Shown here one piece after another: positions 1,607 to 21,300 of a stretch of DNA of 43,548 nucleotides. Source of the DNA: a virus; the IMG/VR virus record IMGVR_UViG_3300035670_000440, positions 1-43,548 of that record. The stretch is one strand, 5' to 3'. Within the stretch, counting starts at the first letter, position 1, and every line of letters starts with the position of its first letter. The notes below the pieces were generated by a model that was not told the DNA's origin, did no database searches, and saw only the letters and a list, made by a program, of their open reading frames with translations. The position numbers and the translations under genes were made by a program.

Positions 1607-1617
1607 GGAATAAGACA

Positions 1618-2187: not shown

Positions 2188-2504
2188 TGAACGCTGATCT
2201 TGTAAATTTCTTACAGTCTAACAAAGAAAAAGCATTTAAAGCTCAAGTGATAAATCATCACATAGGTGGTAATGCTCGTTCTTTGAGACATGACGTTAAC
2301 GAGTTACGTAAAGCTGGAGTCCCTATCATAAGTGGGGACTTCGGCTATATGTACACAGAAGACGTACAAAAGATAGATCGTTGTCTTGAAAGACTTGCAA
2401 GCACTTCTAATAACATATTCAAGGTTATTATGGCTTTGACATCTACAAAGACAAAAATACTTAGAGGAGATAGCAATGGACCACTATTCGACGGGTCTCA
2501 TTGA
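2187..2504 (+). CDS. Winged-helix DNA-binding protein
   Basis: 105 residues. The start codon shares its first base with the stop of the SSB-like gene (TAATG). Residues about 25-60 (IGGNARSLRHDVNELRKAGVPIISGDFGYMYTED) follow the pattern of phage winged-helix proteins: a recognition helix RxxVxxLRxxGxPI, then a short glycine-aromatic wing (GYMY). Such proteins occur in phage replication modules and may guide replication proteins or act as regulators. The C-terminal part looks helical, and the last 29 bases overlap the primase gene. The DNA-binding fold is well supported by pattern. The exact role, replication initiation or transcription control, is not. Confidence 0.65.
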   Translation: MNADLVNFLQSNKEKAFKAQVINHHIGGNARSLRHDVNELRKAGVPIISGDFGYMYTEDVQKIDRCLERLASTSNNIFKVIMALTSTKTKILRGDSNGPLFDGSH

Positions 2505-4303: not shown

Positions 4304-4842
4304 AAAGCACATACGAGATTGTATCAGAGCTAAAGTTTGCTAAAGATGCTATTATAGATATGATGGAGCAAACAGAAGGTGAGATTACAGATGCAGTAAG
4401 CGAGGTTCTTGAAAAGATCCAACAGCTGCAAGTAGAATCAAGCCAAAAGATAGCAGCAGTTGACTGGGTGTTTGGGCAAATTCAAGAGCGTAAAGCTATG
4501 ATTGAAGGTGCTGCTAAATACCATGCCGACAGACTAGCACAGTACAAAGCTAATCTTGCTTCCATAGAAGTGCAACAAGACAGGCTTAAGTACAAGGTTA
4601 TGGATCTTATGTTAGCTAATAACATGGACGCTATAGATCTGGAACATAAAAAGATTAAGCTTATGTACAGCAAAAGCCTGGTAGTTGAAGAACTAGATAA
4701 AGCTATTGCTAACGTACCACAGGAGTATTTACGTACTAAAGTGGAGATCGATAAAACTCCGCTAAAGAAACATATCGAGGAAACAGGTGTATCCTACGAT
4801 GGTGTGGTTATTCAAGAGAGTCCTTACATTAGAGGCCTATGA
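4300..4842 (+). CDS. Gp157-like coiled-coil protein
   Basis: 180 residues, coupled to the helicase by an ATGA overlap. The sequence has the layout of the siphovirus Gp157 family: a long helical region about residues 5-105 with heptad-like spacing (DAVSEVLEKIQQL, AQYKANLASIEVQQDRLKYKVMDLML), then a short strand-rich C-terminus with KIKLMYSKSLVVEE and PQEYLRTKVEIDKTPLKKHI. The TP-K-IK-like end (KTPLKKHIEETG) is characteristic. The family is common in phage replication and recombination blocks beside SSB or recombinase genes. Its biochemistry is poorly known. Family assignment is good, function is open. Confidence 0.75.
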   Translation: MKSTYEIVSELKFAKDAIIDMMEQTEGEITDAVSEVLEKIQQLQVESSQKIAAVDWVFGQIQERKAMIEGAAKYHADRLAQYKANLASIEVQQDRLKYKVMDLMLANNMDAIDLEHKKIKLMYSKSLVVEELDKAIANVPQEYLRTKVEIDKTPLKKHIEETGVSYDGVVIQESPYIRGL

Positions 4843-5195
4843 AAGCGTCTAGTGCAAAGGCAAAAGGTAGAGCACTTGTAAAGTCATTCGCTGAGGGTTT
4901 GTCCAATGCTCTCGGTATTAACATGGATGAGTTTACAATCACGCCTTCTGGTGTTAACGGGGAGGACTTAGTTCCTTCCCCTTATGCTAGAAAGTTATTT
5001 CCGTATTCAGTAGAAGGCAAATCTAGGGCAAGGATAGCTATCTACGAATGGATGAAGCAAGCTGAAGGTCACGGACACGAGCCTTTGCTTGTCGTAAAAC
5101 AAAACAGGAGTACGCCTCTTGTGATAATGAAACAAGAAACATTCTATAAAATGATTAAAGATGCACGAATCAAAACAAATAAAGATAGTGATTGA
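4839..5195 (+). CDS. PDDEXK-type phage endonuclease / resolvase-like protein
   Basis: 118 residues, overlapping the Gp157-like gene by four bases (ATGA). The N-terminus KASSAKAKGRALVKSF, the motif GEDLVPSPYARKLFPYSVEGK, and the segment EPLLVVKQNRSTPLVIM follow the plan of small phage PDDEXK nucleases, described as Holliday-junction resolvase-like. Candidate metal ligands are D43 in GED and the E59-x-K61 pair in VEGK. It may resolve recombination or replication intermediates made by the Sak4-like system, or debranch DNA before packaging. The short length matches the family. The substrate is inferred. Confidence 0.7.
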   Translation: MKASSAKAKGRALVKSFAEGLSNALGINMDEFTITPSGVNGEDLVPSPYARKLFPYSVEGKSRARIAIYEWMKQAEGHGHEPLLVVKQNRSTPLVIMKQETFYKMIKDARIKTNKDSD

Positions 5196-5352
5196 GCTTG
5201 ACTATGAGTCATCTCAAGCAGATTTAAAAGACTTAAGACCGTACATTGAACGTATGACTAGCTTTAGTCTTGACAGTGTTGGCAAGGACTGGGAAGGCAA
5301 TACATTATACTTGTATGATGCTAATTGCAGGAAGCTTTATGTCAAAAAGTAA
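5161..5352 (+). CDS. Hypothetical protein (63 aa)
   Basis: 63 residues, MHESKQIKIVIELDYESSQ... to ...NCRKLYVKK, overlapping the nuclease gene by 35 bases and the next gene by 14. No ribosome site is visible before the ATG, so translation is probably coupled. The pattern suggests a small alpha/beta protein: an N-terminal strand IKIVIELDY, a helix, then a strand NTLYLYD. The family is not recognised. Confidence 0.55.
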   Translation: MHESKQIKIVIELDYESSQADLKDLRPYIERMTSFSLDSVGKDWEGNTLYLYDANCRKLYVKK

Positions 5353-5866
5353 TCCAATCTATCCCAATCCTATAATGGCTTATTCAATAAGAACATTGTT
5401 TAGTGGCAATCATTTTTCTTGTTTAGGAGATCATGGTTACTACTCTAACAATGCTATTATGAACTGGTGGACTCATGAACATTTGAACAAACCACTAGCA
5501 GAACAAGCTAAGAAGTTTGGATTCTATGATGCTATAAAAGAATTGTTTGCTAATGCTAATACGCATGATAACCCAGCAAATAATTGTTATAACATCTTTT
5601 ATCTAAAGAAACGATTAATGCTTCCAATAGATGAGGATGGTGACTTTGTTATCTATTCAGATAATGAAGAAACATCAAGCTTGTTTGGTGAAGCTATATC
5701 AAACAGTATGATTATGGTCCCTGCTTCAAAGAACTTTGCTCCTATTCTTATCACTACATTTTCTAATGATGAGAACGATCAAATCTTTGAAGCTATAGAT
5801 TCCATATCACTTTATTCATCAATGATTACACATAACAATGAAAACAGCAAGAAGCAACACAGTTGA
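5339..5866 (+). CDS. Hypothetical protein (175 aa)
   Basis: The open frame extends upstream to 5270, but the ATG at 5339 (MSKSNPIYPNP) is chosen. It overlaps the previous stop by 14 bases, in line with the packing of this block, while the upstream codons read through the preceding gene. The product has no clear membrane segment or signal peptide. It is rich in aromatic and asparagine residues (NNAIMNWWTHEHLN, HDNPANNCYNIFYL). The family is not recognised and no catalytic motif stands out. Confidence 0.6.
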   Translation: MSKSNPIYPNPIMAYSIRTLFSGNHFSCLGDHGYYSNNAIMNWWTHEHLNKPLAEQAKKFGFYDAIKELFANANTHDNPANNCYNIFYLKKRLMLPIDEDGDFVIYSDNEETSSLFGEAISNSMIMVPASKNFAPILITTFSNDENDQIFEAIDSISLYSSMITHNNENSKKQHS

Positions 5867-6059
5867 GTACTATGTAGGTGGTCGTATTAGAGTAAGATTT
5901 GAATCTTCTGGACATGAAAGTGATCACGAGTTTGAAAGTATGGTTCTAGCTGAGTTAGAAGAAAAACTAATTCAGCTATCCACGACTGGAAAAATCTTTG
6001 AATACTTACATGCTGAAGAAATAGATCATACATGGGAAGAAATTCCTTACGAAGAATAA
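5838..6059 (+). CDS. Small acidic hypothetical protein (73 aa)
   Basis: 73 residues, MKTARSNTVEYYVGGRIRVRF... to ...DHTWEEIPYEE, overlapping the previous gene by 29 bases. The first half looks strand-rich (VEYYVGGRIRVRFES), the second half helical and very acidic, ending in EE just before the stop. A GGGCATG hairpin follows 7 bases after the stop. The family is not recognised. Confidence 0.6.
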   Translation: MKTARSNTVEYYVGGRIRVRFESSGHESDHEFESMVLAELEEKLIQLSTTGKIFEYLHAEEIDHTWEEIPYEE

Positions 6060-6066
6060 CAATAAC

Positions 6067-6090
6067 GGGCATGGCTGAAAGGTCATGCCC
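6067..6090 (+). promoter_or_regulatory. Intergenic hairpin GGGCATG/CATGCCC
   Basis: A perfect 7-bp inverted repeat (6067-6073 with 6084-6090) with a 10-base loop sits between the stop of the 73-aa gene and the next start at 6111. It is followed by AAAACTTTAACG rather than a run of T, so it is not a clean intrinsic terminator. It could be an mRNA stability or processing element. A second hairpin of similar setting lies at 6594-6636. Confidence 0.5.
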
Positions 6091-6110
6091 AAAACTTTAA
6101 CGAGAAAACA

Positions 6111-6398
6111 ATGATAGGAACAACAAAAGAAATAATACGTGATCTTTTAGCTTATCACGGAGAAGATCTATACATGGCTATAGACTTATGGACTATAGAT
6201 GATGTTGCTGAAATACTCAACGACATAGATCCAGACAACCTATATCCATATAATCAGTTAACAAAAGATGACTTTGTGTTAATACTAGAACGTGCCTACA
6301 GCTCGGCTACTAGTGATAGCCCACTGTCTTGGGACTCTATTTCAAGTGAAATACAATATTACGTATACAACAAATATCTAAAGGAAAGACAAGAATGA
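6111..6398 (+). CDS. Hypothetical acidic protein (95 aa)
   Basis: 95 residues, MIGTTKEIIRDLLAYHG... to ...YNKYLKERQE, highly acidic with several short helices (TIDDVAEILNDIDPDNLYPYN). No Shine-Dalgarno is obvious before the ATG (CGAGAAAACAATG). The stop overlaps the next start as ATGA at 6395. The family is not recognised. Small acidic early proteins of phages are often host-takeover or anti-restriction factors, but nothing specific supports that here. Confidence 0.6.
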   Translation: MIGTTKEIIRDLLAYHGEDLYMAIDLWTIDDVAEILNDIDPDNLYPYNQLTKDDFVLILERAYSSATSDSPLSWDSISSEIQYYVYNKYLKERQE

Positions 6399-6586
6399 AA
6401 ACATACGAAGTCTTGGTAGATGTTTGGGAAGATGAAGAATGGGTTACTAAAAGTCTATTTTTAGCTTTAGATCCCAACAGTAATCTAGAAGAACAAGCAT
6501 TGCGTATTATACTAAGTATTTCCAGAAATAGTGGATTTACTGTTAGTGTAAATACTATCGAAGTAATACAAGAAGACGAAGAATAA
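6395..6586 (+). CDS. Hypothetical acidic protein (63 aa)
   Basis: 63 residues, MKTYEVLVDVWEDEEW... to ...NTIEVIQEDEE. AAAGGAAAG nine bases ahead of the ATG is a plausible ribosome site, and the ATGA overlap couples it to the previous gene. A beta-alpha-beta pattern is likely (TYEVLVDVW, helix NLEEQALRIILSI, FTVSVNTIEVI). Like the gene ending at 6059, it ends in acidic residues and GAAGAATAA and is followed by a GC-rich hairpin. The family is not recognised. Confidence 0.6.
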   Translation: MKTYEVLVDVWEDEEWVTKSLFLALDPNSNLEEQALRIILSISRNSGFTVSVNTIEVIQEDEE

Positions 6587-6593
6587 TAACAAA

Positions 6594-6636
6594 GGGGCAG
6601 GATAATGACCACAGGCCATTTACGATAACCTGCCCC
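6594..6636 (+). promoter_or_regulatory. Intergenic hairpin GGGGCAGG/CCTGCCCC
   Basis: A perfect 8-bp inverted repeat (6594-6601 with 6629-6636) encloses 27 bases and starts seven bases after the stop of the 63-aa gene. No T-run follows (AATGTTGCTC). The setting mirrors the hairpin at 6067-6090: an acidic gene ending GAAGAATAA, an AATAAC-like spacer, then a GGGC-rich stem. An mRNA 3'-end or processing element is the likeliest reading, and a partial terminator is possible. Confidence 0.5.
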
Positions 6637-6654
6637 AATGTTGCTCAACAAACG

Positions 6655-6669
6655 GTTACAATTTGTAAC
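6655..6669. promoter_or_regulatory. 15-bp palindrome, operator-like
   Basis: GTTACAA-T-TTGTAAC is a perfect 7+1+7 palindrome in the non-coding stretch before the tRNA-like element. Its size fits a dimeric DNA-binding protein site. No second copy was noticed elsewhere by eye, so regulatory use is only a suggestion. Confidence 0.35.
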
Positions 6670-6695
6670 GCTTTCGTATATTAGATTATCAAACT

Positions 6696-6719
6696 GCTGG
6701 GGCTTACCGTAAGATCAGC
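6696..6719 (+). other. Small stem-loop upstream of the tRNA-like element
   Basis: GCTG/CAGC (6696-6699 with 6716-6719) surrounds an inner CTT/AAG pairing with loop ACCGT. The stem is interrupted by GGG and AT bulges. It lies 25 bases before the tRNA-like element and could belong to a longer structured transcript. Evidence is weak. Confidence 0.25.
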
Positions 6720-6744
6720 TTGCTAACTGGCAGTCTTTCTGGCA

Positions 6745-6835
6745 TCTCTCGTGGTGTAAGTGTGAATAAATAGCACCTTTGGGTAACAGGTCTACTTGTA
6801 GTAGACAGATGTAGGTTCGAGTCCTACCGAGAGAT
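6745..6835 (+). tRNA. tRNA-like element with long variable arm, isotype unclear
   Basis: The acceptor stem is perfect: TCTCTCG (6745-6751) pairs with CGAGAGA (6828-6834), discriminator T at 6835. The T-arm is canonical: GTAGG-TTCGAGT-CCTAC (6811-6827). A D-stem GTGT/GCAC (6754-6757 with 6773-6776) and T8, A14 fit, but the D-loop is long and lacks GG. TCTAC-TTGTA-GTAGA (6791-6805) would be a class II variable arm, as in Leu, Ser or Tyr tRNA. The anticodon arm is irregular: the best stem, ACCT(T)/(C)AGGT, has a mismatch, competes with the D-stem, and puts G rather than T at position 33, so no anticodon can be given. CCA is not encoded. Either a divergent or decayed phage tRNA, or a tRNA mimic. 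Confidence 0.5.
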
Positions 6836-6866
6836 CAAATAACAATAATTAATAATAAGAAATAAC

Positions 6867-7133
6867 ATGGCAAACAGAACGCAACATATTTGGCACTTAA
6901 AAGACACTGAGAAAAGAATCAATGCTCTTGATGGTGGTTGCAAAACAATAGAAGAAGCTATGAAAATGTATGAGCACATACCAAGTAGAAGGCTCACAAT
7001 AAGTTATAAGAACAGAGCTATGGGTCGCATTATTAGAATATGTGATCCCGATCTATTTAATACCATACATATTAGATGGGCTTCGGAATATAAAAGAAAC
7101 GGAAACGTTATAAGCAAGATGTATGATATTTAA
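6867..7133 (+). CDS. Basic hypothetical protein (88 aa)
   Basis: 88 residues, MANRTQHIWHLKDTEKRIN... to ...GNVISKMYDI, the last plus-strand gene before the convergent late block. The leader is A-rich (AATAATAAGAAATAACATG) with no clear Shine-Dalgarno. The protein is basic and probably alpha/beta, with a helix TIEEAMKMYEHI and a strand-turn-strand region SRRLTISYKNRAMGRIIRI. The family is not recognised. It lies just after the tRNA-like element and may share its transcript. Confidence 0.6.
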   Translation: MANRTQHIWHLKDTEKRINALDGGCKTIEEAMKMYEHIPSRRLTISYKNRAMGRIIRICDPDLFNTIHIRWASEYKRNGNVISKMYDI

Positions 7134-7284: not shown

Positions 7285-10200
7285 TTAAGGTTCTTCCTCT
7301 ACAGGTACTTCTCTGAACAGACCACCCCATCCTACTTCGTCAGTAGCAGCCATTTTAGCTTTCTGTCTACCGATTTCTACCATAGGAATACCAAGTATGT
7401 TTCTTGGTGCATTGATAGGTGTTTCAATACTTTTTACTATGTCACGGGTAAGTAGTCCGTAAGGAAAATACGTGTACGCATAGTAGCTACCCAGTCTTTC
7501 CCAGTCACCACTAAATGCAGCTCCAATAATTGGAGTTATAAAACGTGATGAAGGTGGTAGTACTATTTGTAACGGAGCAATGGCAACAGGAAGATCACCA
7601 AGAAAAGCTTTTTCTTTTTCTTCTGGATCACCAAATAGCCATTCAGCAGTGTCTTTGATCCAAGCTAACGGTTGTGGAAGTGTAGAATCAAACACAGAAA
7701 ATGGAAGAAAGCTCGCCATTGCTAGCATGAACATATCTAAAATCATCATGCGCTCAAACTTCTTGCCAGCATCACTGTTAGGTTGGATACCATACGTCTT
7801 TAAATCGTTTACTATTTGGCTTCTAAACTTCGTAGAATTCCAAGCCCATAGTTGAAATCGACTTATTATCTTACCAAGCGATGTACGGCTAAATGCAGGT
7901 CTGTTAGCGTTGTTGTACATAAACTGTGTAGCAGCAACACCACGCTGTGCCATTGATATAAGTAGCGGATCATTAGGATCTATAGTTGCACTTGATACAT
8001 CAAAGACTTCTCTAGCTTTTAGATAGTGAGACACAAAAGAACGATAGCGAAGTTGTCTTTCAGATGATTTCATAAAGAAAGCGAACTTATTAAACACAGC
8101 ATCAGACAATCCAGACTTCTTCCAAATCTCCATAAGCTCCATGTCTTTGATGTCAGGCTTACCCTTGATAACATCAACCATTCTATTGATAGTCTCTTTA
8201 ACCTGAGTAGGAGCTATCTTATTGATATTAGAAAGCTCGTTAGCTAAGAATGATTCGAGAGCACCATGACTTTCAGCCCAAGCATACACATCGTTACGTG
8301 ACTTAAATGATGGGTCAATTCTATTACGAAGAAGGTCCACATTAAAACTACCACGCCAGTGTCTAAACCCAGCACTGATAAGGTTGTTAGGTTCACCACC
8401 AACAATGTTGTTTACAAATGTTTTTGGTCTAGATAGCAACGTCATTAACTGATACTTAGCTTCAAAGTTAGACCATGTTTGTAACCATTGTGTAGAATTC
8501 CATAACTTTGTTGGATCTTCACCTTCTTTAGGTTTGCGTAGTTTATTAAGAAACTTACCACCTTGCTCTGATACGTACTCATCTGCAAACTTCCAGTAAA
8601 ATGATTTTTTAATTTCTGGCAGGTCACGTATATCACCTTCAGTAAACACACTTGGATAGCCTAAGTTGTCACGGATATATAGTTCCATAAACTTGGACCA
8701 TTTAGTTGTTTCCTCTTTGGAAATAACTAAAGCTGATTTACGTCTAAAGTTTTCAATACGTATATCACCATCTAGTGCAAGAACGTTATTGTAGTATGCT
8801 TTTACAATATCTTTTTCATACTGTTGTAAGCTACGCATATCACGTTGCCACCCAGCTATAGTAGCATTTTCACCACGTTTACGTGTATTTTTTTGCTTGT
8901 TAGATAGACCTATGTTTTGAGCTATCTGATTATAGCTTTTCTCGTCAGTAATAAAATCCATCTGAGAATTCCATAACATCTCATCAACCCAGTTTTGATG
9001 AGACTTAGATACATTTTGCTCGGACCTAGCTTGATGTTTGAGAGATTCAATCTCTAATATGGCATCTTCTTCGCTTATGCCCTTCTGCATTCTAGCTCTA
9101 GCAAACTCTTCTATGTACTTATCTGGATGGTTCATGTGTGGGAAGTAACTATCTCCACCAATAAACCCGATAGGCTTGTACTCAAGACCACGTTTAACAT
9201 TAATACGATGCAAGGATTCTGCTATTTCAACAAGAGAACGACTATCACCATTGTCTTGCAAACGACGTGCAATGTTCTGTAATCTTCTTTGGTAATTGAT
9301 TTGGTTAAGATTGTTTAACCCTACGATCTTAGAATCTGGTCCTTGTGTTTGTTTTGTAAGCGCCCAGATACGATTGTATGTTTTTTCAACATCAATAAGT
9401 CTAATAGATCTTTTTCCTGTAAGCTCTGGCTCAAGGTATACTATTGTATCCTCAGGCATGTTGCCTACAACAAACGTTTCGTAAAAGTCATTAAGGTGTG
9501 ATGTAAGTTTAGTGTCTATTTGATCTGCAATTTCAAGTGCAGTTAATTGTTTAGACACTACGTTTCCATCTTCAATAACATTGACAGTGTATTTTTTTGA
9601 AGCAACACGTTCATCAAACACCTTTTTAGACATTTCGTATTCTTTTTGGTACACTTGTTTGTTACCAATAGGTGCTTTAAGCTCACGTCTTGCTACTGCA
9701 AAGTCAAAAATAACAGCTCCATCTCCATCAGACTGGCTGTTTACAGCATTGATAATATCAAAGTCTTCTGTGGTCTTAAATACACGGTAGTCTTGCATAC
9801 CGCTAATCATATCGTTGATAGCAGATGCAGACTGGTGGAGCTGACTCATTGTAGACGTAGGCTTGATAGCATAGTACTTTGTAAAGCCTTTTTCAAAATC
9901 TACTTCGTAGGCAGTGGTACGCTGAAGCTGGTAATCAAACTCTTGTGTTTGCTTACCTATGGTGTCTGGAAACCAAAAGAAATTCTTCCAATGAAACTGA
10001 CCCTTCTTAGCATTGGTCATTGTATTCCATATATAATCACGACCACGCTTATGAGTCTGCATAAACTCTCTAAGATCATACAATGTAGACTGATCTGGAT
10101 TTGTAGAATAGCCTTTGTGTCCAGCAGTAACACCTCTCCAGTAGCTCAAGAAGTTATTAGCAAACCAACCTGGAGCATGATGAGCATCGTGATAGCCCAT

Positions 10201-13200
10201 CAACTCTTTGAAATCATCAAGGATAACAAGCTCTTCAGCAGAAAACTTTTGATTAGGATCAAAGATCTGGCGAAGATTATCCAAATAAGCCTTGTTATCT
10301 GTGCGTTGAATCTCTTTGTTAGGATCAAGATTGCGCTCAAGAAAGTCAGAAACGGTTGTTTTTTTATCAGCTTCGGCATAAGCTTCAGCAACTTGTTTAG
10401 CTTCTGAAGTAACAACTTCTTCGATAAGCTTTTCTTTTTTCTTGCCAGTAGCTTTTTTAATTTGTGCTACTTGCTCTGGCTTAGGATCGAAAGTATCGTT
10501 TCTTGGCTCAGATAACACTTTGTTTTCTGGGACCGTATTAAATGCTTCCTGTTTACCTAGTGTAGAAAAGTCATAAACATCCTGAGGATCTTCTATCTTA
10601 ACTCGTTTGTAGAGATTTTTTACATTCAAAACGCTCATTTTTTCCCCAGCAATAGCATCTTGAACAATGCCATAGCTTTTGTAAAATGAGTTGGTGTTTT
10701 CAAGACCAGTAGATCTTAGAAATGATCCAAAAGAGTTTAGGTTGTTGTTAAATACTTTAGCAGTAAGCTTGTCGTATGCGTCTTGCTGTTTAACCGACAA
10801 ACCTGTAGATAGCATTTTCTCATACAGTTTATTTTGAGCTGCTACATCTTTAGGGTTTTGCACATTAAACGTACCGATCATATACGTGTCAAAAAGATCA
10901 CGCTGCCATTTGCTTTGCAATACGTCTCTAAAAGCTTTTACTTTAAGCTGTAAACCTTCAACAACTTCAGACTTGTTAATACCCTGACTATTGTTTATTT
11001 CCCTTGATGCTACTGCATAGTCTTTCTTAAAACTATCAGCTTTGTTGGCAATGTCATTAACAGCTTTAGCTACCAGTTCTTTACGTTCTGGCGTTTCTGC
11101 TGCTTTCATAACTCGCTCTACTTGTTTGTAAAGCATTGAAGCAGTAGTGATGTCACTTACGTCTTGACTTATAAGCTGTTTTGCCGTGTTGACCTTAGAC
11201 GCTATAGACCGTTTAGCTTTATCAATAACAGCTGGATCAGTAGATGTGTTGACGGTATTAAAGTCTTGTTCTATAGAGTTTCTAAGTCTAACTACTTCTT
11301 TAGAACCATTAATGCTTTTAAGAATACCAAGACTTTCAAGTATCTGAATTCTTTGCTTGTCTTGCGTTGTCATCTCTCCACCAGCTTTGTACTTCTCGTA
11401 CCCGTACTTGGTGTACATTGTTTTGTAGTCGTCTATAATCTTGGAATACTTGGTTTCCGTAAGACCAGGCAATCCAGCCAAAGCAAATATATCTGGGTCT
11501 GGAGACTCTATACTGCTAGCAAGTAATGCTTTTTTAGACTTGAAGTCACTTGTACCTTGAGGCTCTTTAAATGATATTAAATACTCGTAATAGCTTTTGT
11601 TTTTACGAACGCCAGCATCTGTAAAAATATGCTTGTTAGTTGAATCAATAGCATCTTTGTATAGCTTGTACTCTTTAGGTTTAACAGAGTCAATAAGAAT
11701 ACGTCTTTCGCTACCATCTTTATTTCTTACAACAGCATAAGTATCAAATGCCTTGCTCCAAAGCATATTGCTTATTTCTGTTGGTCTAATCATGTCAAAG
11801 CTATCAGCGCTATCAGCAGCGTAGTTCATAGCCTGACGTGCAAAACCATCAAACTCGCTTATGTCAGCTTTCTTAACAGACTCAATTCTAATAACAGAAG
11901 CTTTATTAACATTGCTTGGTAGTTTAATACCTTTTTGATTCTTATCTATTGTAACAACATCTGGAGCTACAGACCACCATGAAGAAATGTCTGTACGTGC
12001 AGAAGCAGCAAAGCCAACAGCTTGCTTACCTTTGGTGGCATTGAATCCAGCAGTAGTAAGTGCTGTCATGTCAAACAAAGAAGCTACATTTTTCTTATTA
12101 GTTGGTATAGGTTGTACACCCATAGCTCTAGCACCTTCTTCATTCTTGCTAGGTATGTTTACTTTTTTATCACCAACTTGTTTTGTCCATTGATCTTTGT
12201 TTCTAAGCAGCACATCATGTAGCGTTTCTTGTGCTTTGCCATACTTGTTCTTGCCTAAATCTTGGTAGATAAACGTGGAATCAATGTCCAAGTCCATACC
12301 ACCCATGTAAGCCATGTCTTCGCTATGTAGCGCTATACCTGTTCCTCTGTTGTCATAGAAGCCTTTAAACATCATAGACCTAGCGCCAGATATAGAATCA
12401 GATGGCACACGAATGACAATCATTCTAAGGTCTTGTTCAAGATTTTTTACTAATTCAGATTGAGGATCTTTAGAAACTTCAGCCTGATAGATATCAAAAA
12501 GATCACCAAGCTTCATGTCTTTTTCTAGGGCACGACTCTTGACCTTCATATTACGTGAGCCTTGACCAAGCATAAACTCGCCTGGTTTTACAAGACCACG
12601 ATTAAACTCATCGGTAGGCAAACCAATAGCCTTAGCGGAGTACGGCACTTCTGGAGTACTGATACGTGAATGTAAGTAAGAGGCTACTTTGTTGTCTACA
12701 TACCCAACAAGATTCTTATTTGACAGAATAGATGGGCTCAGTATTTCAATATCATCAGATAATGACAGCAATGCTTTTTCAGCAGCAGACAGGTTTTTAC
12801 CTAAAAACTCAGACTCAGCAACATAAGAAGACGGATCTTCTTTAATGTTAGACTTGAGTATCTGTCGCATTACGCTATCATAAACGTAAATGTTTGTAGA
12901 CACATTAGGATTAAGAATGTCTACAAGATCCTGCACTCCAAGCTTTTCTATTTTAATCTTTGAAGCTTTAAGCTTTGCTACAACTTGATCTGTTTCTCCA
13001 TCAAGTTCTACATTAAGTCTCTGAAGTTTTTCTGCCTCTTTAGGGTCACCTCTAAAAGAGTTACCAATAGTTTCGTCAAATACTTCATTTATGATTTCTT
13101 GATCTACTTTGCTTGCATGCAAGTTTCCAAGTGCCTGACTTACAAGTACTTGATTTTCAAGTGAACTTGCTATGTCTTCTTTAGTACCAAGATTGTAAGA

Positions 13201-16200
13201 CACACCTTCTACGGGCATGGTGTAGATAGCATCTTTGATGTCTACTTGTTCTTGCGTTCCAGCTTTGTAGATACGCATTTTACCATCGTTACCTAGCTGG
13301 CTGTCGTACTTGACTCGTTTACCAGACTGCTTTGCACTTGTGTCACGAAGAATCATGTGCAAGCCATTCTCTTTTAAAAACGCATCTTGAGCATTACCTG
13401 CTCGGAACATGGCATGCTTAGATAATAACATACCAAGATCACTGTCATCACCAGCAGCAATAATAGATTTGATAACACCAGCTTCGGGATCATAGCCACC
13501 ATCACGAACCATTTGGTCAAACACATCTTGACGCACAATCACAGCGCCATCGGTAGCTGTCTCTGATACTTCATCAAATACTTCGCCATTTTTTTCATAG
13601 CTAAATATATCGTCTTCAACGCCTTCACGTTTTGTAAGACCATTCTTATTAGCAGAGTTTAGAATAACATACTTGAAACCACCTTCAGCATCATCTATAC
13701 CAGCAAAGTATCTAGCATCAGCCCACTGCCCGTCAGCGTGCAATAACTGCATACGCTTATTAAGTGCAAGAAAGTCATTAACAAAACCTTTCTTAGCTAG
13801 ATCAGCTAGCTTGACTCCAGGATTAAGAACGTCAGTATGTAGCTTTACTTGGGAAGCAACATACGTATCGTATAAATCTTTAGCAGAATCTTCATCAATA
13901 TCTAGTCTTGTTTTTACTTCGTCGATGTATTCTTGTCTAGCATCTAAGTATGTTTGTTCAAGACCAAGATCTTGTATTTCTTTAAGTGCTAGTACTTTTT
14001 CTTCTGGAGTAACTGGAATCATGTCATAGTAGACAAGCTCGCCATTACTCTTTACGTGACCAGCAAAAGCTTTGCCTTGCTCAAGCATTTTGTGGTGAAT
14101 CCACAATAATTCTTTTGGACTTTCAAAAGGATCAAAGATTTTTTCCGTCTTATAAGAATTTTCAGATACAGTGTTATCTACATAGCGTATGCTGTATACC
14201 TTAATATCTTTGTTGAACTTGTTCAAGCCCCTTTGAAAGTGACTAGGTGCTTTAGATACAGCAATAGGTTCGCCACTTCTTGATGTAGAGCTAGCTTGAA
14301 ACACTTCTCTTGTGGTTGGATCTACTACATACTGAATAGCTTTTTCGTTGTTTTTAATCTTTCTAATTGTCTGTGTTATCTCAGCAGTAAGTTTACGTTT
14401 TTCGTCTGGAGATACTTTAGACTTTTCGCTAATGTATTTGTTAACAACAACCTCAGCAAAGTCAGCTGGGGTCTTGGTGTTGTCCAAACCAAACTGATCG
14501 TAGTCATTCTTAATACCGTTCAAAATCTCGTTGTAACGAGCTTGTTTCTGTGATGCAGGTATTGTGTCGTCTAATGATACTATCGTGCGTGTAACGTAAT
14601 CTATGGGGGCCTGGCGACGAAGCTGTATACCATTTATGTCACCAGTATACCCATCTTCCATGTTACGTAGTATGTTGTCATCAAAGAGTGCGGTATCATC
14701 AACAGTAGCTGTATCTGTAGAATCTAGTGCTTTCTTTGTAGGACGTGGTACGGTAGGGTCAGCTTGTAATGGAACAACATCTGTAGCTACAGGTTGATTA
14801 GGATTTAAAGCTTCTACTGGAATAGGATTAGTATCTCCAGTTTCAATAGTGCTATTGACTGGCGTTCTAACAATCTTTTGAGATGGTGTGCTATCTACAC
14901 CAAGTAAAGCTTCTGGAGTCTGCTTCTGACTGTCGAGCCATTGCTTAAACTCAACATCACGGCTTGGGTTTTCCGTAAGATACTCACCGTAAGCTCTTTT
15001 GATTTGCTCACGTTCAGAAGTAGATACAATAAACTGCTCTTCTTGCTCTCTACCTAGTCCAAGATCTCTAGCAATAGTAGCTTCTAATGCTGGATCTGTG
15101 TTAAAAAATTCCTGTGCTCTTGCATCAACATCTGGCTTATCGGAAATAGCAACAAGCTGATCTAATGTAATGCCTTCAGATTCTCTTACAACAAACTCAT
15201 TGGCAACTTCTGGAGTTACTGATTCTTCTACATCTAAAATTCTTTGAGCAACAGGGTCGGGCTGATCGTCAGAAGAAGTACGCAAACCACCTACTAATAT
15301 ATCTGCATCGGTAAGTTTGTTGCTTGGTGTTTTAGCAACTTGATCTTTGATAATACCAACTGCCCTATCTGATATTCCACTAAGATCCTGTTCACCAGTA
15401 AACGGATCTAAGTCGTATGCACCTTCTTTTATTTCTTGATCTATTTGCTCTGTAGCTTTTACCAAAGCTTCGCCAAAACCACCTTTACGAATAGCATCAA
15501 GAGCAGCATTGTTTGCATCTTCTGCATTCATGCCTTCAGCTTCATACTTAGCTACAAGAACATCATATTCTTTTTTAAATATAGCATGAGATACTATTTG
15601 TGAAGTAATACCACCTCGAGCAGTACCAAGACTACTACCAAGCCACATTCTAGCTTGATGTACAATTTCTTTTCTTACATTCTCAGCTTGATCGCCATAT
15701 AGCTCTTCAGCATTCTTGTACTCTGGAATGTTTTCTTCTGGATTAAGCCATGCTTCGTATCTACGTTTACCATCAGCAGTAACACTACTAGGTCCTGTCA
15801 TTACTTCAAGAGCCTTACGTTGTGCATACGGCATCTCAGTACCAAACCATGCACCAGTCAAGTAATCAAATACTTGAATCTCAAGCGGTTGGTCCATAAG
15901 TGTACTAGGTAAACCGTTTACCATCATACCAGCAAGAGCACGAATAGCAGCAGGTTGACCACCAAATACTTCTGCAACACCACGATCAAGACCACCAAAA
16001 GCAGCACCAGTAGCAAAGCTATAAGCCATTTGATCTATACCGCCTTGCCATGAGGACACACCAGAAGCAAGACCCATACGAATTGCACCTTCAGCTACGC
16101 TTTCAGCTACAACACGTTTACCGCCAGGACCAAGTAAAACTTTCTTAGCTAACGCCTCAGCTGGAGTACCTGCTAATGCTTTCTTACCCATGTTCATGAT

Positions 16201-16617
16201 AAGATCAGCAGCGTACATTGGAATAGATCGTGTCTGCGTGTAATACCTTCCTACTACTGGATTGGTAACAGTACGCAGTCCTTGCATAGTTTTTGTTACC
16301 GCAGCTTCAGCACCCTCACGACCTACAACACCACCAAGAAGCTTGATGCCACCTCTAACACCCATTGTACCTGCTTTAGTACCAAAACTAAGAGCAGTAC
16401 CCACACCAGGAATAATACCAACAAAACCAGCAAAGTAACCAGCACCTTGCGCTAAAGATTCGAGCCAGTTATCTGGCTCTTCTTCTACAATGTCAATAGT
16501 GGTGAATCCTTGAACAAACCCACCAGCTAATTGTTTTAGTACATCTACAAACTGTAGGCCATCCTCCTCCTGTTGCGAAGGATTAAGGCCATACCCAACA
16601 GGTCTAGGTGCTAGCAT
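7285..16617 (-). CDS. Giant virion protein (3110 aa) with two-barrel RNA polymerase core
   Basis: The largest gene and the last of the minus-strand late block. The N-terminus (about 55-98) is hydrophobic and glycine-rich (GYFAGFVGIIPGVGTALSFG), as in internal virion or ejection proteins. A hydrophobic stretch near residue 2955 (MFMLAMASFLPFSVF) suggests a membrane-active C-terminal region. The middle resembles a multisubunit-type RNA polymerase: TDGA at 1022-1025, SKHAMF with K1067, DTSAKQSGKR with K1096 and K1100 (beta-like barrel), then RVPS from R1403, GFYDNRGTGI and MGGMDLDIDSTF, whose aspartates D1442, D1444 and D1446 match the catalytic DxDxD loop of beta' and of crAss-like virion polymerases. 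Likely packaged and injected, then transcribing early genes. N4-type (T7-like) polymerase motifs were not seen. The polymerase call is by pattern; domain borders are unknown. Confidence 0.75.
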   Translation of the reverse strand: MLAPRPVGYGLNPSQQEEDGLQFVDVLKQLAGGFVQGFTTIDIVEEEPDNWLESLAQGAGYFAGFVGIIPGVGTALSFGTKAGTMGVRGGIKLLGGVVGREGAEAAVTKTMQGLRTVTNPVVGRYYTQTRSIPMYAADLIMNMGKKALAGTPAEALAKKVLLGPGGKRVVAESVAEGAIRMGLASGVSSWQGGIDQMAYSFATGAAFGGLDRGVAEVFGGQPAAIRALAGMMVNGLPSTLMDQPLEIQVFDYLTGAWFGTEMPYAQRKALEVMTGPSSVTADGKRRYEAWLNPEENIPEYKNAEELYGDQAENVRKEIVHQARMWLGSSLGTARGGITSQIVSHAIFKKEYDVLVAKYEAEGMNAEDANNAALDAIRKGGFGEALVKATEQIDQEIKEGAYDLDPFTGEQDLSGISDRAVGIIKDQVAKTPSNKLTDADILVGGLRTSSDDQPDPVAQRILDVEESVTPEVANEFVVRESEGITLDQLVAISDKPDVDARAQEFFNTDPALEATIARDLGLGREQEEQFIVSTSEREQIKRAYGEYLTENPSRDVEFKQWLDSQKQTPEALLGVDSTPSQKIVRTPVNSTIETGDTNPIPVEALNPNQPVATDVVPLQADPTVPRPTKKALDSTDTATVDDTALFDDNILRNMEDGYTGDINGIQLRRQAPIDYVTRTIVSLDDTIPASQKQARYNEILNGIKNDYDQFGLDNTKTPADFAEVVVNKYISEKSKVSPDEKRKLTAEITQTIRKIKNNEKAIQYVVDPTTREVFQASSTSRSGEPIAVSKAPSHFQRGLNKFNKDIKVYSIRYVDNTVSENSYKTEKIFDPFESPKELLWIHHKMLEQGKAFAGHVKSNGELVYYDMIPVTPEEKVLALKEIQDLGLEQTYLDARQEYIDEVKTRLDIDEDSAKDLYDTYVASQVKLHTDVLNPGVKLADLAKKGFVNDFLALNKRMQLLHADGQWADARYFAGIDDAEGGFKYVILNSANKNGLTKREGVEDDIFSYEKNGEVFDEVSETATDGAVIVRQDVFDQMVRDGGYDPEAGVIKSIIAAGDDSDLGMLLSKHAMFRAGNAQDAFLKENGLHMILRDTSAKQSGKRVKYDSQLGNDGKMRIYKAGTQEQVDIKDAIYTMPVEGVSYNLGTKEDIASSLENQVLVSQALGNLHASKVDQEIINEVFDETIGNSFRGDPKEAEKLQRLNVELDGETDQVVAKLKASKIKIEKLGVQDLVDILNPNVSTNIYVYDSVMRQILKSNIKEDPSSYVAESEFLGKNLSAAEKALLSLSDDIEILSPSILSNKNLVGYVDNKVASYLHSRISTPEVPYSAKAIGLPTDEFNRGLVKPGEFMLGQGSRNMKVKSRALEKDMKLGDLFDIYQAEVSKDPQSELVKNLEQDLRMIVIRVPSDSISGARSMMFKGFYDNRGTGIALHSEDMAYMGGMDLDIDSTFIYQDLGKNKYGKAQETLHDVLLRNKDQWTKQVGDKKVNIPSKNEEGARAMGVQPIPTNKKNVASLFDMTALTTAGFNATKGKQAVGFAASARTDISSWWSVAPDVVTIDKNQKGIKLPSNVNKASVIRIESVKKADISEFDGFARQAMNYAADSADSFDMIRPTEISNMLWSKAFDTYAVVRNKDGSERRILIDSVKPKEYKLYKDAIDSTNKHIFTDAGVRKNKSYYEYLISFKEPQGTSDFKSKKALLASSIESPDPDIFALAGLPGLTETKYSKIIDDYKTMYTKYGYEKYKAGGEMTTQDKQRIQILESLGILKSINGSKEVVRLRNSIEQDFNTVNTSTDPAVIDKAKRSIASKVNTAKQLISQDVSDITTASMLYKQVERVMKAAETPERKELVAKAVNDIANKADSFKKDYAVASREINNSQGINKSEVVEGLQLKVKAFRDVLQSKWQRDLFDTYMIGTFNVQNPKDVAAQNKLYEKMLSTGLSVKQQDAYDKLTAKVFNNNLNSFGSFLRSTGLENTNSFYKSYGIVQDAIAGEKMSVLNVKNLYKRVKIEDPQDVYDFSTLGKQEAFNTVPENKVLSEPRNDTFDPKPEQVAQIKKATGKKKEKLIEEVVTSEAKQVAEAYAEADKKTTVSDFLERNLDPNKEIQRTDNKAYLDNLRQIFDPNQKFSAEELVILDDFKELMGYHDAHHAPGWFANNFLSYWRGVTAGHKGYSTNPDQSTLYDLREFMQTHKRGRDYIWNTMTNAKKGQFHWKNFFWFPDTIGKQTQEFDYQLQRTTAYEVDFEKGFTKYYAIKPTSTMSQLHQSASAINDMISGMQDYRVFKTTEDFDIINAVNSQSDGDGAVIFDFAVARRELKAPIGNKQVYQKEYEMSKKVFDERVASKKYTVNVIEDGNVVSKQLTALEIADQIDTKLTSHLNDFYETFVVGNMPEDTIVYLEPELTGKRSIRLIDVEKTYNRIWALTKQTQGPDSKIVGLNNLNQINYQRRLQNIARRLQDNGDSRSLVEIAESLHRINVKRGLEYKPIGFIGGDSYFPHMNHPDKYIEEFARARMQKGISEEDAILEIESLKHQARSEQNVSKSHQNWVDEMLWNSQMDFITDEKSYNQIAQNIGLSNKQKNTRKRGENATIAGWQRDMRSLQQYEKDIVKAYYNNVLALDGDIRIENFRRKSALVISKEETTKWSKFMELYIRDNLGYPSVFTEGDIRDLPEIKKSFYWKFADEYVSEQGGKFLNKLRKPKEGEDPTKLWNSTQWLQTWSNFEAKYQLMTLLSRPKTFVNNIVGGEPNNLISAGFRHWRGSFNVDLLRNRIDPSFKSRNDVYAWAESHGALESFLANELSNINKIAPTQVKETINRMVDVIKGKPDIKDMELMEIWKKSGLSDAVFNKFAFFMKSSERQLRYRSFVSHYLKAREVFDVSSATIDPNDPLLISMAQRGVAATQFMYNNANRPAFSRTSLGKIISRFQLWAWNSTKFRSQIVNDLKTYGIQPNSDAGKKFERMMILDMFMLAMASFLPFSVFDSTLPQPLAWIKDTAEWLFGDPEEKEKAFLGDLPVAIAPLQIVLPPSSRFITPIIGAAFSGDWERLGSYYAYTYFPYGLLTRDIVKSIETPINAPRNILGIPMVEIGRQKAKMAATDEVGWGGLFREVPVEEEP
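12280..13554 (-). other. Predicted RNA polymerase catalytic region (two double-psi barrels)
   Basis: This segment of the giant gene covers residues 1022-1446. The proximal part (TDGAVIVRQDVF, LLSKHAMFRAG, LHMILRDTSAKQSGKR) follows the beta-like barrel of crAss-like phage polymerases, with lysine candidates for substrate binding. The distal part (IRVPSDSISGARSMMFKGF, then ALHSEDMAYMGGMDLDID) follows the beta'-like barrel: an R-x-P motif and a glycine-led DxDxD metal loop about 40 residues later. Bridge-helix and trigger-loop equivalents would lie downstream of 1446 but were not identified. Confidence 0.7.
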
Positions 16618-16628
16618 ATATTACTTAC

Positions 16629-17510
16629 TTATTGTTGTGGTGCTTGTTGCAATATTCCTTGTTGAACTTCTTTTGGCAAAGTAGAAAACACTCTTTGTAT
16701 TGCAGCTTCAGATCTCTTTCTTGACGCTTCTGGCATTCTTCCTTTTGCTTCTTCATAAGCTTGACTCATGCTAACGTAAGCTCCTAACAAACTATTAGGT
16801 TCTATTGGTCTTCCAGAAGAAATAGACTGTGAAACTTTTGTTCCAATATCCTTAGACATTTTGACAATATCTTCAGATACAAGCTCTGCAGACAAGTTTT
16901 TTACATCTGTTCTACCTATAAATCTTCCAAGATCCGCAAAAGGACCAGCAAGAAAACTTCCAATAGGTGAAAGAAATCTACCAATTCCTTGTATGTCTTT
17001 ATATCCAGAAGCTAAATCGACTCCTGGATCTACATCAATAGTAATAGGACCAGCTGCAGCAGCTTCTTGAGCTTTTCTAAGAGCATCCATCTCAAGATCA
17101 AATTTTTGTTTTGTTAAACCAAACTGAGCTTGAGCAAGACCAAGTTGACCACGACCAATAGCAAGCTGACCACGACTAATTTCTTGCTGAAAAGGAACTT
17201 CTACTTCTTGTCTAAATTTTTGAGCTGCTGCCGTTAAGTCAATACCAGCTTGAGCAAGTTTATCTTGAGATTGTGCCCTAGCGTAATTATAAGCCATTGT
17301 AGCGTCAAACTGCTCAGCCTGCATTTTTTGCTGACGTTCTTTCAAATTCATTTCTGTAAGAAACTGCTGATTTTGTTGCTGTTGTTCAGCTCTACGCTGC
17401 ATTAAATTAGCAGTAGATTCGGCTCTACGCTCAGCCATTTGATCGTAGTTAGCTCGAGTTTGAATAGCAAACTGAGAAGCTTGTAGTAAGTTTTCAAAAG
17501 GAGACGCCAT
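16629..17510 (-). CDS. Coiled-coil internal virion (ejection) protein candidate
   Basis: 293 residues, 11 bases upstream of the giant gene. The N-terminal 150 residues are an uninterrupted Q/A/R/E-rich helix (AERRAESTANLMQRRAEQQQQ, then repeats of RGQLAIGRGQLGLAQAQFGL), a likely long coiled coil. A less biased region follows with GIGRFLSPIGSFLAGPFADLGRFIG, a possible amphipathic or membrane-contacting helix around residues 175-200. Place and composition match the internal core proteins that podoviruses eject with DNA, next to the giant injected protein. No enzymatic motif is seen. Confidence 0.65.
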   Translation of the reverse strand: MASPFENLLQASQFAIQTRANYDQMAERRAESTANLMQRRAEQQQQNQQFLTEMNLKERQQKMQAEQFDATMAYNYARAQSQDKLAQAGIDLTAAAQKFRQEVEVPFQQEISRGQLAIGRGQLGLAQAQFGLTKQKFDLEMDALRKAQEAAAAGPITIDVDPGVDLASGYKDIQGIGRFLSPIGSFLAGPFADLGRFIGRTDVKNLSAELVSEDIVKMSKDIGTKVSQSISSGRPIEPNSLLGAYVSMSQAYEEAKGRMPEASRKRSEAAIQRVFSTLPKEVQQGILQQAPQQ

Positions 17511-17512
17511 AT

Positions 17513-18190
17513 TTATATCCCACCATAAGTTAATTGTGGCACAGCGAAGTTTGTATTAAAACTAGTATTAAATCTAGGTGAAGTATAATTTTGTCGACCA
17601 AACATTCTTTCCATAAAAGCCATGTCTTCAGCTCTTTGAGCTTGCATCATTTGCTGACCACTGCGTTGTGCACCATAACCCATAGCCATACCGCCTAAAG
17701 CTCCTAAGGCTTGAGCAAACGGATTGTTCTGTGCCATACCAGCTCTAAAGTTTAATGCGTTCATACGTGCAGCGTTACGTGCTTGTACGTTTTGAGCTTC
17801 AATGTTTGAACGTGCAGCTTGAATTTCACCAAGCATACCAAGACGTTGAATATTACTTTGACCCAAAGCACCAAAAAGAGAAGCCTGTGCTGCTCGTCTA
17901 TCCATAGCAGTAGCTTCTGCAGCTAAAGCTGGATTACCCATTTGTGCGTACATACGCTGTGCTTGGGCTGCAGCTCCACGCTGCGAAGACTGAAAACCTT
18001 GATAAAGAGGTTGATCGAAGTTAGCACCTTCTACTCTAGCTCTAAGCTCGTCATACCCAGCAGTAGATATTTGCTCTGGGGTAAAACGATCTAGCATACG
18101 TGCTGCTCGTCTGTTTGATCTACTTTGTAGGAATCCAGATAAGAGGGAACTTCCAGCTCCTACCAGCATCCCAGCTGTCATTGGGTCCAT
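17513..18190 (-). CDS. Alanine/glutamine-rich internal virion protein candidate
   Basis: 225 residues. A strong ribosome site (AAAGGAGATATTATG) sets the start. Residues 4-23 (MTAGMLVGAGSSLLSGFLQS) form a glycine-zipper-like hydrophobic segment. The rest is helical and rich in A, Q, R and M (AAAQAQRMYAQMGNPALAAEA, LGALGGMAMGYGAQ). This is the pattern of small ejection proteins such as T7 gp14, which insert in the host envelope during DNA entry. It stands with the coiled-coil protein and the giant protein in one unit, consistent with a three-part ejection apparatus. No family match is claimed beyond this analogy. Confidence 0.65.
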   Translation of the reverse strand: MDPMTAGMLVGAGSSLLSGFLQSRSNRRAARMLDRFTPEQISTAGYDELRARVEGANFDQPLYQGFQSSQRGAAAQAQRMYAQMGNPALAAEATAMDRRAAQASLFGALGQSNIQRLGMLGEIQAARSNIEAQNVQARNAARMNALNFRAGMAQNNPFAQALGALGGMAMGYGAQRSGQQMMQAQRAEDMAFMERMFGRQNYTSPRFNTSFNTNFAVPQLTYGGI

Positions 18191-18217
18191 AATATCTCCT
18201 TTTAAGCCTAAATAAAA

Positions 18218-18391
18218 TTATTCTTTATCAGATTTGTTATTGTCAACATTGTCTTCCATAGCTGTTTGGTCAGCTAAAGCCTGAAGAAGTCGTTGATATA
18301 CATTAAAAGCTTTTGCATGATCTTCTGCCGTAGCAGGAGCTTTACGTGCTAAGTCGTAAATATACGATACCAAAGATTGAAATTCGTTCAT
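18218..18391 (-). CDS. Small hypothetical protein (57 aa)
   Basis: 57 residues, starting MNEFQSLVSYIYDLARKAPA and ending DNVDNNKSDKE. Its ATG overlaps the stop of the tail fibre gene by one base (TAATG), so it is probably translated by coupling. The first 40 residues look helical (HAKAFNVYQRLLQALA), the tail is acidic. It fills the only space between the fibre gene and the ejection genes, which supports it as a real gene. Resembles small phage accessory proteins in size only; family unknown. Confidence 0.7.
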   Translation of the reverse strand: MNEFQSLVSYIYDLARKAPATAEDHAKAFNVYQRLLQALADQTAMEDNVDNNKSDKE

Positions 18392-21300
18392 TAGTTGTAA
18401 AATGGCATTTTGTAAATGTTTCCGTTTATATCTACATATATGTAACCAGCAATAGCTCCAGCGCTAGTAGGAAAGCTACCTGCGTTTGATGTTATCTTAA
18501 AAACAGAAGAAGCATCAGCTTGTGTCACATTAAACTCAACGGCTTTATCGTTTGCTTTATAGAAGTTACCGTAAAATCTTGAATTATTCACAGCTTCAAA
18601 AGTACCAGCAGTAACAGCAGCTCTTCCAGTATCAGCAACACCCCAGAGTTTTACTTGTGGTGTGCCAGAAGCATACTGCATTACAAGTGATCCACCGTTA
18701 ACATTGTCATTGTTGTGGTAGATTGTAAACTTACGTGTTGTCTGCTTTGTATTGTAGCTGTTTTCATGCAATGTAAGACCAAATCTAGAAGACCCAACAG
18801 GGTTTGATAAAACGTGTATACCACCAGAATTTGTATTAGTATTCTGTGCATAAACAAATACTTCACCATCTGTATCAAGTATTTTTACGTTGTTACCACT
18901 AGAAGCTGTTGTTGTTAAAGATCCACGAAGAATAACACTGCCAAACTCAGCAGTACCATCATCCTTAATAGCCCACCCACTAGTTCCCGAAACATAATTA
19001 TTGCTTTTAAGAAGATTGGTATCAATAGTAATGTTATCCAAGTACACGTTAATAGAAGATCCAGTGCTATACGCTCCAGCTACTTCCATTGTCATAATCA
19101 TACCAGCGGATATACCAGTAGCACTAGCTACAGTAATCGCAGTAGTACCAGCAGGATAACCTACTTTAGGTGTTGCTGTTCTTGTAACCCTTGTTATTAC
19201 ACTTGGATGTGATGTAATGGTTTGACCAAGATCTGGATTGTGAGAAAAACGAACAGTGTCGTTATCAAACACTTCGTAAGAGAGTCCAGGATTTAAGTTT
19301 ACTGTAGATCCTACTACGGAAGCAACTTCTCCTAATCGTTGTCCATCAATATAATCTCTAAATGTATCTTGAGTAACCGCAAGAGATATTTGATCGTTAA
19401 GAATTTTTAATGAAGAACTAGATCCAGTAGCTCCCAAATACACTGGACTACCAGAATTAGCAATAACACTAATTGTACTAATTCCAACATTGGTTGGTGA
19501 TCCAGTAGCTGCTTTGTCTTCTGTTGCTGTAACTGATATGTATTCCTTAGGATTAGCCGTGTTTACAATGTATAATACATTTCCATTTTTAATAGGATAT
19601 AGCAACTGGCTTAAATCTAAAGAACTTGTGCTACCGCTATAAGAGGTTGCTAACGATCCTAAATATATATTCCCATATAAGTTTGTAGCTGTTAAAGCAA
19701 AGCCATCTAGCGTCTGGCTAAGTTTAGATCCATAATCACCAGTATTTAAATTAAGTCCTGATCCTATTGGTGCTATTACAGTAGTCGACTGTATTGATAA
19801 ACTTGTCGCCCCAGCAAGAGCAGCTGCATTTACTATAACGGGATATGCAATACCATTGCTGTTATTAACAACATAAAGTTTTTGTCCAATAGACAATGAT
19901 ATTGGTAATGATGTTACTTGTAATGTTGTTACTGTGCCATTGGCAGCACTAGTAAGCGTAGCTATAGAATTACCTGTTGATGATGTTTCTATAATGCTTG
20001 TAATACTTGTAGCAGTTTGAGTAAGTGTAGACCTGACTAAAGCAGTATCAACATGTACTCCAGAACCATTACTTGCAGTAAATGTTCCACCACCTACTTT
20101 GGTTACGCTAATACTAGTAGCTCCTAGAGAAGCATCAGCCGTAAGCTGCAAAATTGTAGAATCTCCTGTGACTTTATCTACAACATATATTCTGTCTCCA
20201 TTAAACATAGCATAAGGCAATCCAGGCGCAGATAATGCCAAACTAAATGGACTACTTATTCCAGAGTATGCTGAACTTATAACACCCAAACTACCTGCTA
20301 CTGAAAATTTCTCTATACTAGTAACAACATTATCCGCTGTTTGTTTTATTTGTGATCTAGCATAAGAGCTTTGTAAATGCACTCCAGATCCACTAGGAAC
20401 ATTTAATGTTACAGATTGTACTGGTAATGAAACCGCTCCACTAGTAACGTCTGAGGTTAATTGTATTTCTGTAGGAGCAAGTGTTGTTGCATTATATACA
20501 AAAAACCTATCTCCATTGTATAGGTTTACTGTTAGTCCTGATATGGGTAAACTAGTAACCGTACCGTTTACTGCACTTGATAACTGGCAAATAGAATTGT
20601 TTGCATTATATCTTTGTACTACACTACTAATACTATCTCCAGTAATACGCAACAATGCCGAAGAACTGTTAGCTGTTAAGTATACCTTAGAATCAATAGG
20701 TTTGCTGACTGTAGAGCTGTTAATAGGTATCGTTGAGCTTAACGCATCCGTATTGCTAGTAACAGTATGTGTTGATACAAGTTCTGGATTTGTGTTGTCA
20801 ACAATAAATAAAATGTCATTAGCCTTAATAGGCACTCTCAAAAACGGTGATTTAAGAGACAAACTAGTAACTGTACCGCTATACGTTGTAGACAAATCTC
20901 CCAAGTAAATAGCACCAGCTAAAAATAAAGACCTTAAATCAATAGCATCGCCTGATATATTAATGTAGCTTACAAGTGATAACTGATCTAATGTAATCGG
21001 AGACTGATCTTTAACACCAAGTATTTTTGGTTTTATAGATATACTTGTAGAACCAGTATTTGCTAAGGCAGTTGTTTGGCATACATATTGTTTTCCATTT
21101 TCTAGGTCTTGTACAATAACTTTCCAACCAAGATCACCTCTAATAGAAATAGGTAAGGGTGTTACAGGTATAGATGTTCTTCCTAGTATATACGAAGCAT
21201 ACGATCCAGAAGAAACAGTACCTGTTGCAACAATAGTTGTTGTACCAGCAGATGTTACCGTACAAGTTATATCGTCAATTTCTATTTCAGCGTCTACAAT

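Follow-up and report, generated by a model that had tools for sequence, protein, structure and literature searches.

The question raised by IMG/VR virus record IMGVR_UViG_3300035670_000440, of which the whole 43,548-nucleotide stretch was analysed (hereafter the window), is what a single open reading frame (ORF) of 3110 amino acids is doing at the end of a block of phage structural genes. This giant gene (7285..16617, minus strand, in the ORF list) closes the minus-strand late block, and the original prediction placed a virion-type two-barrel RNA polymerase core inside its product. Our analysis makes it very likely that this giant protein, from a small (~45 kb) tailed phage, is a DNA-dependent RNA polymerase with both barrels in one chain, housed within a multi-domain virion (ejection) protein. 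Its core is shown by computation to be homologous to the virion polymerases of crAss-like phages, with a modelled two-barrel fold and an active site that appears intact, and we infer the label 'structural protein' from the position of the gene.

The motifs on which the prediction was built are all exact in the ORF, including the individual residues (K1067, K1096, K1100, D1442, D1444 and D1446) and their coordinates: TDGA starts at residue 1022, SKHAMF at 1066, DTSAKQSGKR at 1092 and MGG at 1438, with DLDID occupying 1442-1446, each inside 12280-13554 on the minus strand (residues 1022-1446). That interval, however, stops with D1446, whereas the polymerase core (11638..13980, minus strand; residues about 880-1660), as delimited by an AlphaFold2 model, PDB fold matches and an hhalign alignment over 941-1451, continues to about residue 1660. 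Within it, the beta-like double-psi beta-barrel (DPBB-B; 13315..13551, minus strand) carries D1023-G1024, GK1067 and TSAK1096Q-G1099-R1101, as judged from invariance and alignment to gp66 of Cellulophaga phage phi14:2, and the beta'-like barrel (DPBB-A; 12280..12411, minus strand) carries R1403-x-P1405...G1440-x-D1442-x-D1444-x-D1446, on invariance and a gapless alignment to gp66. A probable bridge-helix/trigger region is placed tentatively at residues 1518-1542 (11992..12066, minus strand), based on a long predicted helix and a weak hhalign placement against phi14:2 residues 1521-1555. Single-sequence searches with the 3110-residue protein returned nothing from PHROGs, from Pfam above cut-off, from PDB sequences or from 50,697 phage records, and the core itself was likewise without a Pfam or PHROGs match and without a tblastn match among these public records.

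A profile built from phi14:2 gp66 (P0001) and ten more crAss-like or related polymerases, including gp33 of Flavobacterium phage Fpv1, was placed best, and weakly, on residues 1391-1492 of the giant protein, the predicted DPBB-A. R-x-P and G-x-DxDxD stand 37 residues apart in the giant protein and in crAss-like polymerases alike, and a pattern taken from the 3110-residue sequence (R-[VI]-P, 34 residues, then G-x-D-x-D-x-D), run as a DNA pattern on IMG/VR, matched 18 stretches: nine relatives of the giant protein, eight crAss-like polymerases and one unrelated stretch (L031), that is, two-barrel RNA polymerase ORFs in 17 of the 18. The nine relatives match in the polymerase core with E values down to 1e-60 and in the C-terminal part down to 1e-119. 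Pattern scans based on a single protein gave no relatives, and a mixed alignment of crAss-like and window sequences was too diverse for scanning; a search with alignment A2 recovered 22 loci in viruses and two in cellular genomes. The homologous giant ORFs in IMG/VR measure 2700-3420 amino acids, and D-x-D-x-D is kept throughout the about 20 homologous loci. The giant protein is a member of a family of two-barrel polymerases in related phages that had not been annotated before.

Conservation within this family is strict where an active site is predicted. R1403, P1405, G1440 and the three aspartates D1442, D1444 and D1446 are invariant in all 19 rows of the family alignment, as are D1023/G1024 in the 17 rows that cover them and K1067, K1096, G1099 and R1101 in the 15 covering rows. 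As the relatives share just 21-28% identity with the window protein, this invariance indicates strong constraint on the predicted active site. Two variations were also seen among the relatives: the branch formed by L035 and L036 has DLDSD in place of DLDID, with all three aspartates retained, and L044 has an apparent insert with Cys/His (ICNGTCG...IQHVVA...) in the polymerase region, after DPBB-A in alignment A3.

Comparison of the family with the crAss-like RNA polymerase alignment by hhalign gave a score of 76.7 (probability 94, E 1e-7, 438 columns), against a maximum of 21.1 in 60 column shuffles and 20.6 for a reversed profile. The family gave 82.5 with the window protein removed, and each barrel also matched by itself, with a score of 41 for the DPBB-B half (residues 880-1359; shuffle maximum 17) and a probability of 93 for DPBB-A. 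The alignment places K954-R955, D1023, K1067 and K1096 on gp66 K893-R894, D962, K1027 and K1065, and, without gaps, R1403, P1405, G1440 and D1442/1444/1446 on gp66 R1322, P1324, G1359 and D1361/1363/1365. The active-site overlay that had been proposed was hence supported for K1067, K1096 and the aspartates but not for K1100, which is kept in just 2 of 15 relatives. According to PMC7886860, gp66 carries both DPBB domains on a single chain and has been verified by experiment as a virion polymerase. By tblastn, gp66 and the window protein show no pairwise match; hhalign of the family against the single sequences of P23-45 gp96 and gp64 gave nothing significant, and the family profile matched no PDB sequence.

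Congruent with the profile comparison, an AlphaFold2 model of residues 880-1780, built with alignment A3, reached a predicted template modelling score (pTM) of 0.71 and a mean predicted local distance difference test (pLDDT) of 71, with values of 80-97 over most of the barrel parts. Foldseek against the PDB returned 6vr4 (gp66) as the best match (E 2e-7), followed by QDE-1 and other two-barrel RNA polymerases, whereas in a viral fold library the best matches were unnamed viral proteins (E down to 1e-32), then crAss-like proteins. In VIA-align the Z-scores were 17.6 for QDE-1, 17.1 for RDR2, 12.6 for P74 gp62, 11.7 for P23-45 gp96 and 10.7 for gp66, the last with 586 residues superposed at 4.1 A. 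Both barrels are covered in the matches to gp66, QDE-1, P74 gp62 and gp96, with DPBB-B preceding DPBB-A. The predicted core, in beta-like then beta'-like order, is consequently borne out by the profile-profile alignment and the best PDB matches together, and rather than an unrelated fold or one devoid of a double-psi barrel, the model matches crAss-like RNA polymerase and QDE-1. The assignment as a single-chain two-barrel RNA polymerase therefore follows from family conservation, the profile-profile score and the AlphaFold2 fold matches.

Several results nevertheless weigh against this assignment or the role attached to it. When the family profile was run by HMMER against single crAss-like ORFs, gp66 was absent from the top matches, and sequence homology accordingly rests on the profile-profile comparison. 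The TM-scores obtained globally against PDB entries are modest (0.42 for gp66), and the trigger/bridge part, with its long helix at model positions 638-671, is of moderate confidence. An AlphaFold2 model of the C-terminal block of the giant protein was poor, of low confidence and uninterpretable. Finally, a search for an early promoter motif found no 10- or 12-mer clearly above shuffles.

What surrounds the core bears on where the enzyme may act. By blastp among relatives, conservation in the giant protein falls into three blocks (residues 13-353, the core at about 880-1660 and residues 2446-3088) joined by variable linkers. The N-terminal block (15559..16581, minus strand; E down to 1e-34) is Gly-rich and hydrophobic, and we infer a possible membrane or ejection part. 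The C-terminal block (7354..9282, minus strand; E down to 1e-118, alignment A4) is predicted to be helical and is the most conserved part of the giant protein, exceeding the polymerase core. It is encoded by no named phage according to tblastn; 7 of 16 family members weakly match phrog_11358 (3431 positions, function not known), and the block may therefore occur in other giant phage proteins.

The gene order is informative as well. The minus strand of the window encodes a P22-type portal, terminase, a head protein, tail-fibre-like repeats, an endolysin and a metallophosphoesterase, with the giant gene last. Convergent with it lies a plus-strand recombination/replication block, presumed early (460..7133; Sak4-like, primase, DnaB-like helicase, Gp157/Gam-like and RusA-like genes by PHROGs/Pfam), and the primase/helicase homologs are convergent likewise in relatives. 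In phi14:2 and Fpv1, too, the polymerase gene closes the late block and points toward the early genes. The placement of the gene and its fusion architecture suggest that the giant protein is probably packaged in the virion. A polymerase made with late genes and serving early ones would have to travel in the particle, and packaging is favoured because known relatives within large late proteins are virion proteins, with precedents for packaged two-barrel enzymes of this kind (PMC10770324, PMC7886860, PMC10172136): the P23-45 virion polymerase was detected by western blot (PMC10770324), the crAss001 polymerase was identified as a virion protein by mass spectrometry (PMC10172136), and that of phi14:2 is a virion protein per annotation based on tandem mass spectrometry (MS/MS).

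In the mechanism we propose, the giant protein would be synthesised late alongside the structural proteins, packed in the capsid and ejected into the host ahead of, or together with, the DNA, the conserved N- and C-terminal blocks presumably serving ejection, anchoring or regulation. The ejected polymerase would then start on the phage's first (early) genes independently of host sigma factors; D1442/D1444/D1446 would form its Mg-binding triad, with K1067/K1096 lying in the other barrel. Sigma-70-like sites were no commoner than expected by chance. The companion statement that the window shows no further RNA polymerase gene agrees with scans of most larger ORFs and with a beta' domain search, but the T7-type search, in which PF00940 was not found in the window, gave no positive-control signal, and the contig is incomplete. 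A T7/N4-type polymerase core was considered for the giant protein and set aside as unlikely, the core matching two-barrel enzymes instead.

Four other explanations have to be weighed against a packaged polymerase. The enzyme may be a working two-barrel polymerase that is made late, stays outside the virion and transcribes phage genes in the same infection. Non-virion enzymes of this kind are known (P23-45 gp64, PMC10770324) and match the AlphaFold2 model, but here the gene closes the strand of late structural genes and its product includes large conserved blocks at both ends; moreover, the known relatives that form part of giant late proteins belong to the virion (PMC10770324; for phi14:2, the MS/MS-based annotation), and we regard this reading as unlikely. 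It is very unlikely that the fold has been retained without catalysis as a structural or DNA-binding scaffold of an ejection or tape-measure-like protein: the extreme divergence from known enzymes would fit, yet the catalytic aspartates and both barrel lysines have stayed invariant at the low identities given above. Slighter still is the chance of an RNA interference (RNAi)-type polymerase, copying RNA templates or synthesising primers rather than transcribing early genes. Although the RNAi polymerases QDE-1 and RDR2 have the top structural Z-scores, they form one clade of single-chain polymerases with the DNA-dependent phage enzymes (PMC10770324), the double-stranded DNA phage setting and the sequence homology favour the phage enzymes, and the phage already has a primase-like gene. 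Finally, the motifs might match by chance in a large structural protein that has no known relatives, as the blank single-sequence searches could suggest; the profile and fold results, the alignment of the family and the 17 of 18 pattern matches refute this, leaving a negligible probability.

Packaged RNA polymerases are known from several groups, namely N4-like, giant and crAss-like phages and P23-45. The giant protein resembles phi14:2 gp66 (PDB 6vr4) in being a single chain with the same barrel order, equivalent catalytic residues and identical R-P to DxDxD spacing, and in its giant late-strand gene facing early genes; one relative also appears to have a Bacteroidota host. Unlike gp66, however, the window core sits mid-protein within about 3.1 thousand residues that include N- and C-terminal conserved blocks of their own, and the family phages are small (~45-50 kb, with a P22-type portal) compared with phi14:2 (~100 kb). 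P23-45 gp96 (PDB 8h2m/8h2n) is similarly a two-barrel polymerase within a giant virion protein, a status that is presumed for the window protein, but its polymerase is N-terminal, clamp-less and part of the tape measure of a long-tailed phage, whereas about 900 residues precede the window core. QDE-1 and RDR2 share the single-chain two-barrel fold and differ in being cellular, not virion, enzymes without a sequence match. In layout only, a parallel is offered by the N4 virion polymerase gp50 (Schitoviridae, about 3.5 thousand residues), with an N-terminal part, a central polymerase and a large C-terminal part; gp50 is packaged and consists of a lipid-binding N-terminal domain, the polymerase and a large C-terminal domain (PMC12633501), yet its polymerase is related to T7-like single-subunit enzymes. 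Fpv1 gp33 is also a giant virion-annotated protein, with RxP...GLDYDID and a gene facing early genes; unlike the window protein, it comes from a ~89-kb genome, measures about 4.4 thousand residues and matches the crAss-like set, not the window family, by tblastn.

We thus describe a new family in a new genomic setting for a known kind of enzyme; we found no paper describing the family, in a search that covered subscription journals thinly. We give even chances to a broader proposal, namely that these ~45-50 kb P22-portal phages, with at least one Bacteroidota provirus, hold an independent lineage of virion RNA polymerases that joins a two-barrel polymerase to an N4-like three-part ejection protein, and that even integrating phages start infection without host sigma factors. 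If true, injected two-barrel polymerases would be more widespread in Bacteroidota phages, in genomes about half the crAss-like size. The family adds diverged sequences to a polymerase group whose members scarcely resemble one another, and may offer a compact natural system to study the tail ejection of a very large enzyme and transcription start.

A fragment of a known crAss-like phage was rejected as the source of the window, as its other genes are without a phi14:2 match: when 34 window proteins were compared by phmmer with the ORFs of phi14:2 and of parts of the Fpv1 and P23-45 genomes, none matched at E 0.05, in an insensitive single-sequence search of a fragment contig. The family phages are not recognisably Crassvirales. 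The host link comes from L056, a relative in a contig of a Bacteroidota metagenome-assembled genome that is 99.995% identical to L042 of IMG/VR. On that contig, genes of host type (TonB-dependent receptors, PEGA) and a tRNA-Ser stop ~0.3 kb before the region common to the 50.6-kb IMG/VR contig, which suggests a provirus next to tRNA-Ser in a Bacteroidota genome; alternatively, the contig may be chimeric. A tyrosine integrase was not found in the L042/L056 phage record. The final ~200 bases of L042/L056 hold a reading frame with a TIR-like sequence (VFLCHATEDKPVVRKLYSRL...PWLDDEDL), perhaps a defence gene. In a Rhodothermales chromosome (L057, ~9935-10726), the match to the family is confined to a 264-residue open frame that holds the DPBB-A motif RVPAPS...GGADLDID; the remainder of the giant gene is unrecognisable near it, and the frame is probably what is left of a decayed provirus.

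The late strand upstream of the giant gene (16629..25154, minus strand) encodes a pair of small proteins together with two large ones that are putative tail proteins. In L036, L037, L043 and others, the giant gene is likewise preceded by homologs of 22077-25154 and of the N-terminal part of 18391-22080. At the right end, an open frame at 43272-43548 (plus strand), MSTNVIFARRTESNDLK..., runs out of the window, and the contig is therefore incomplete or circularly cut there. Within the plus-strand block, a tRNA-like cloverleaf at 6745-6836 has a 7-bp acceptor (UCUCUCG/CGAGAGA), a T arm with a TTCGAGT loop and a fold z of -2.4; it is uncalled by ARAGORN and Rfam and is possibly a degenerate tRNA close to the early/late junction. 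In the same block, the primase-like ORF (2476-3468, plus strand) and the DnaB-like helicase ORF (3431-4303, plus strand) overlap in different frames, while in L036, L037 and L045 the primase-like and DnaB-like parts match one open frame of ~590-630 amino acids, and the frame break represents a split gene, a programmed frameshift or a sequence error.

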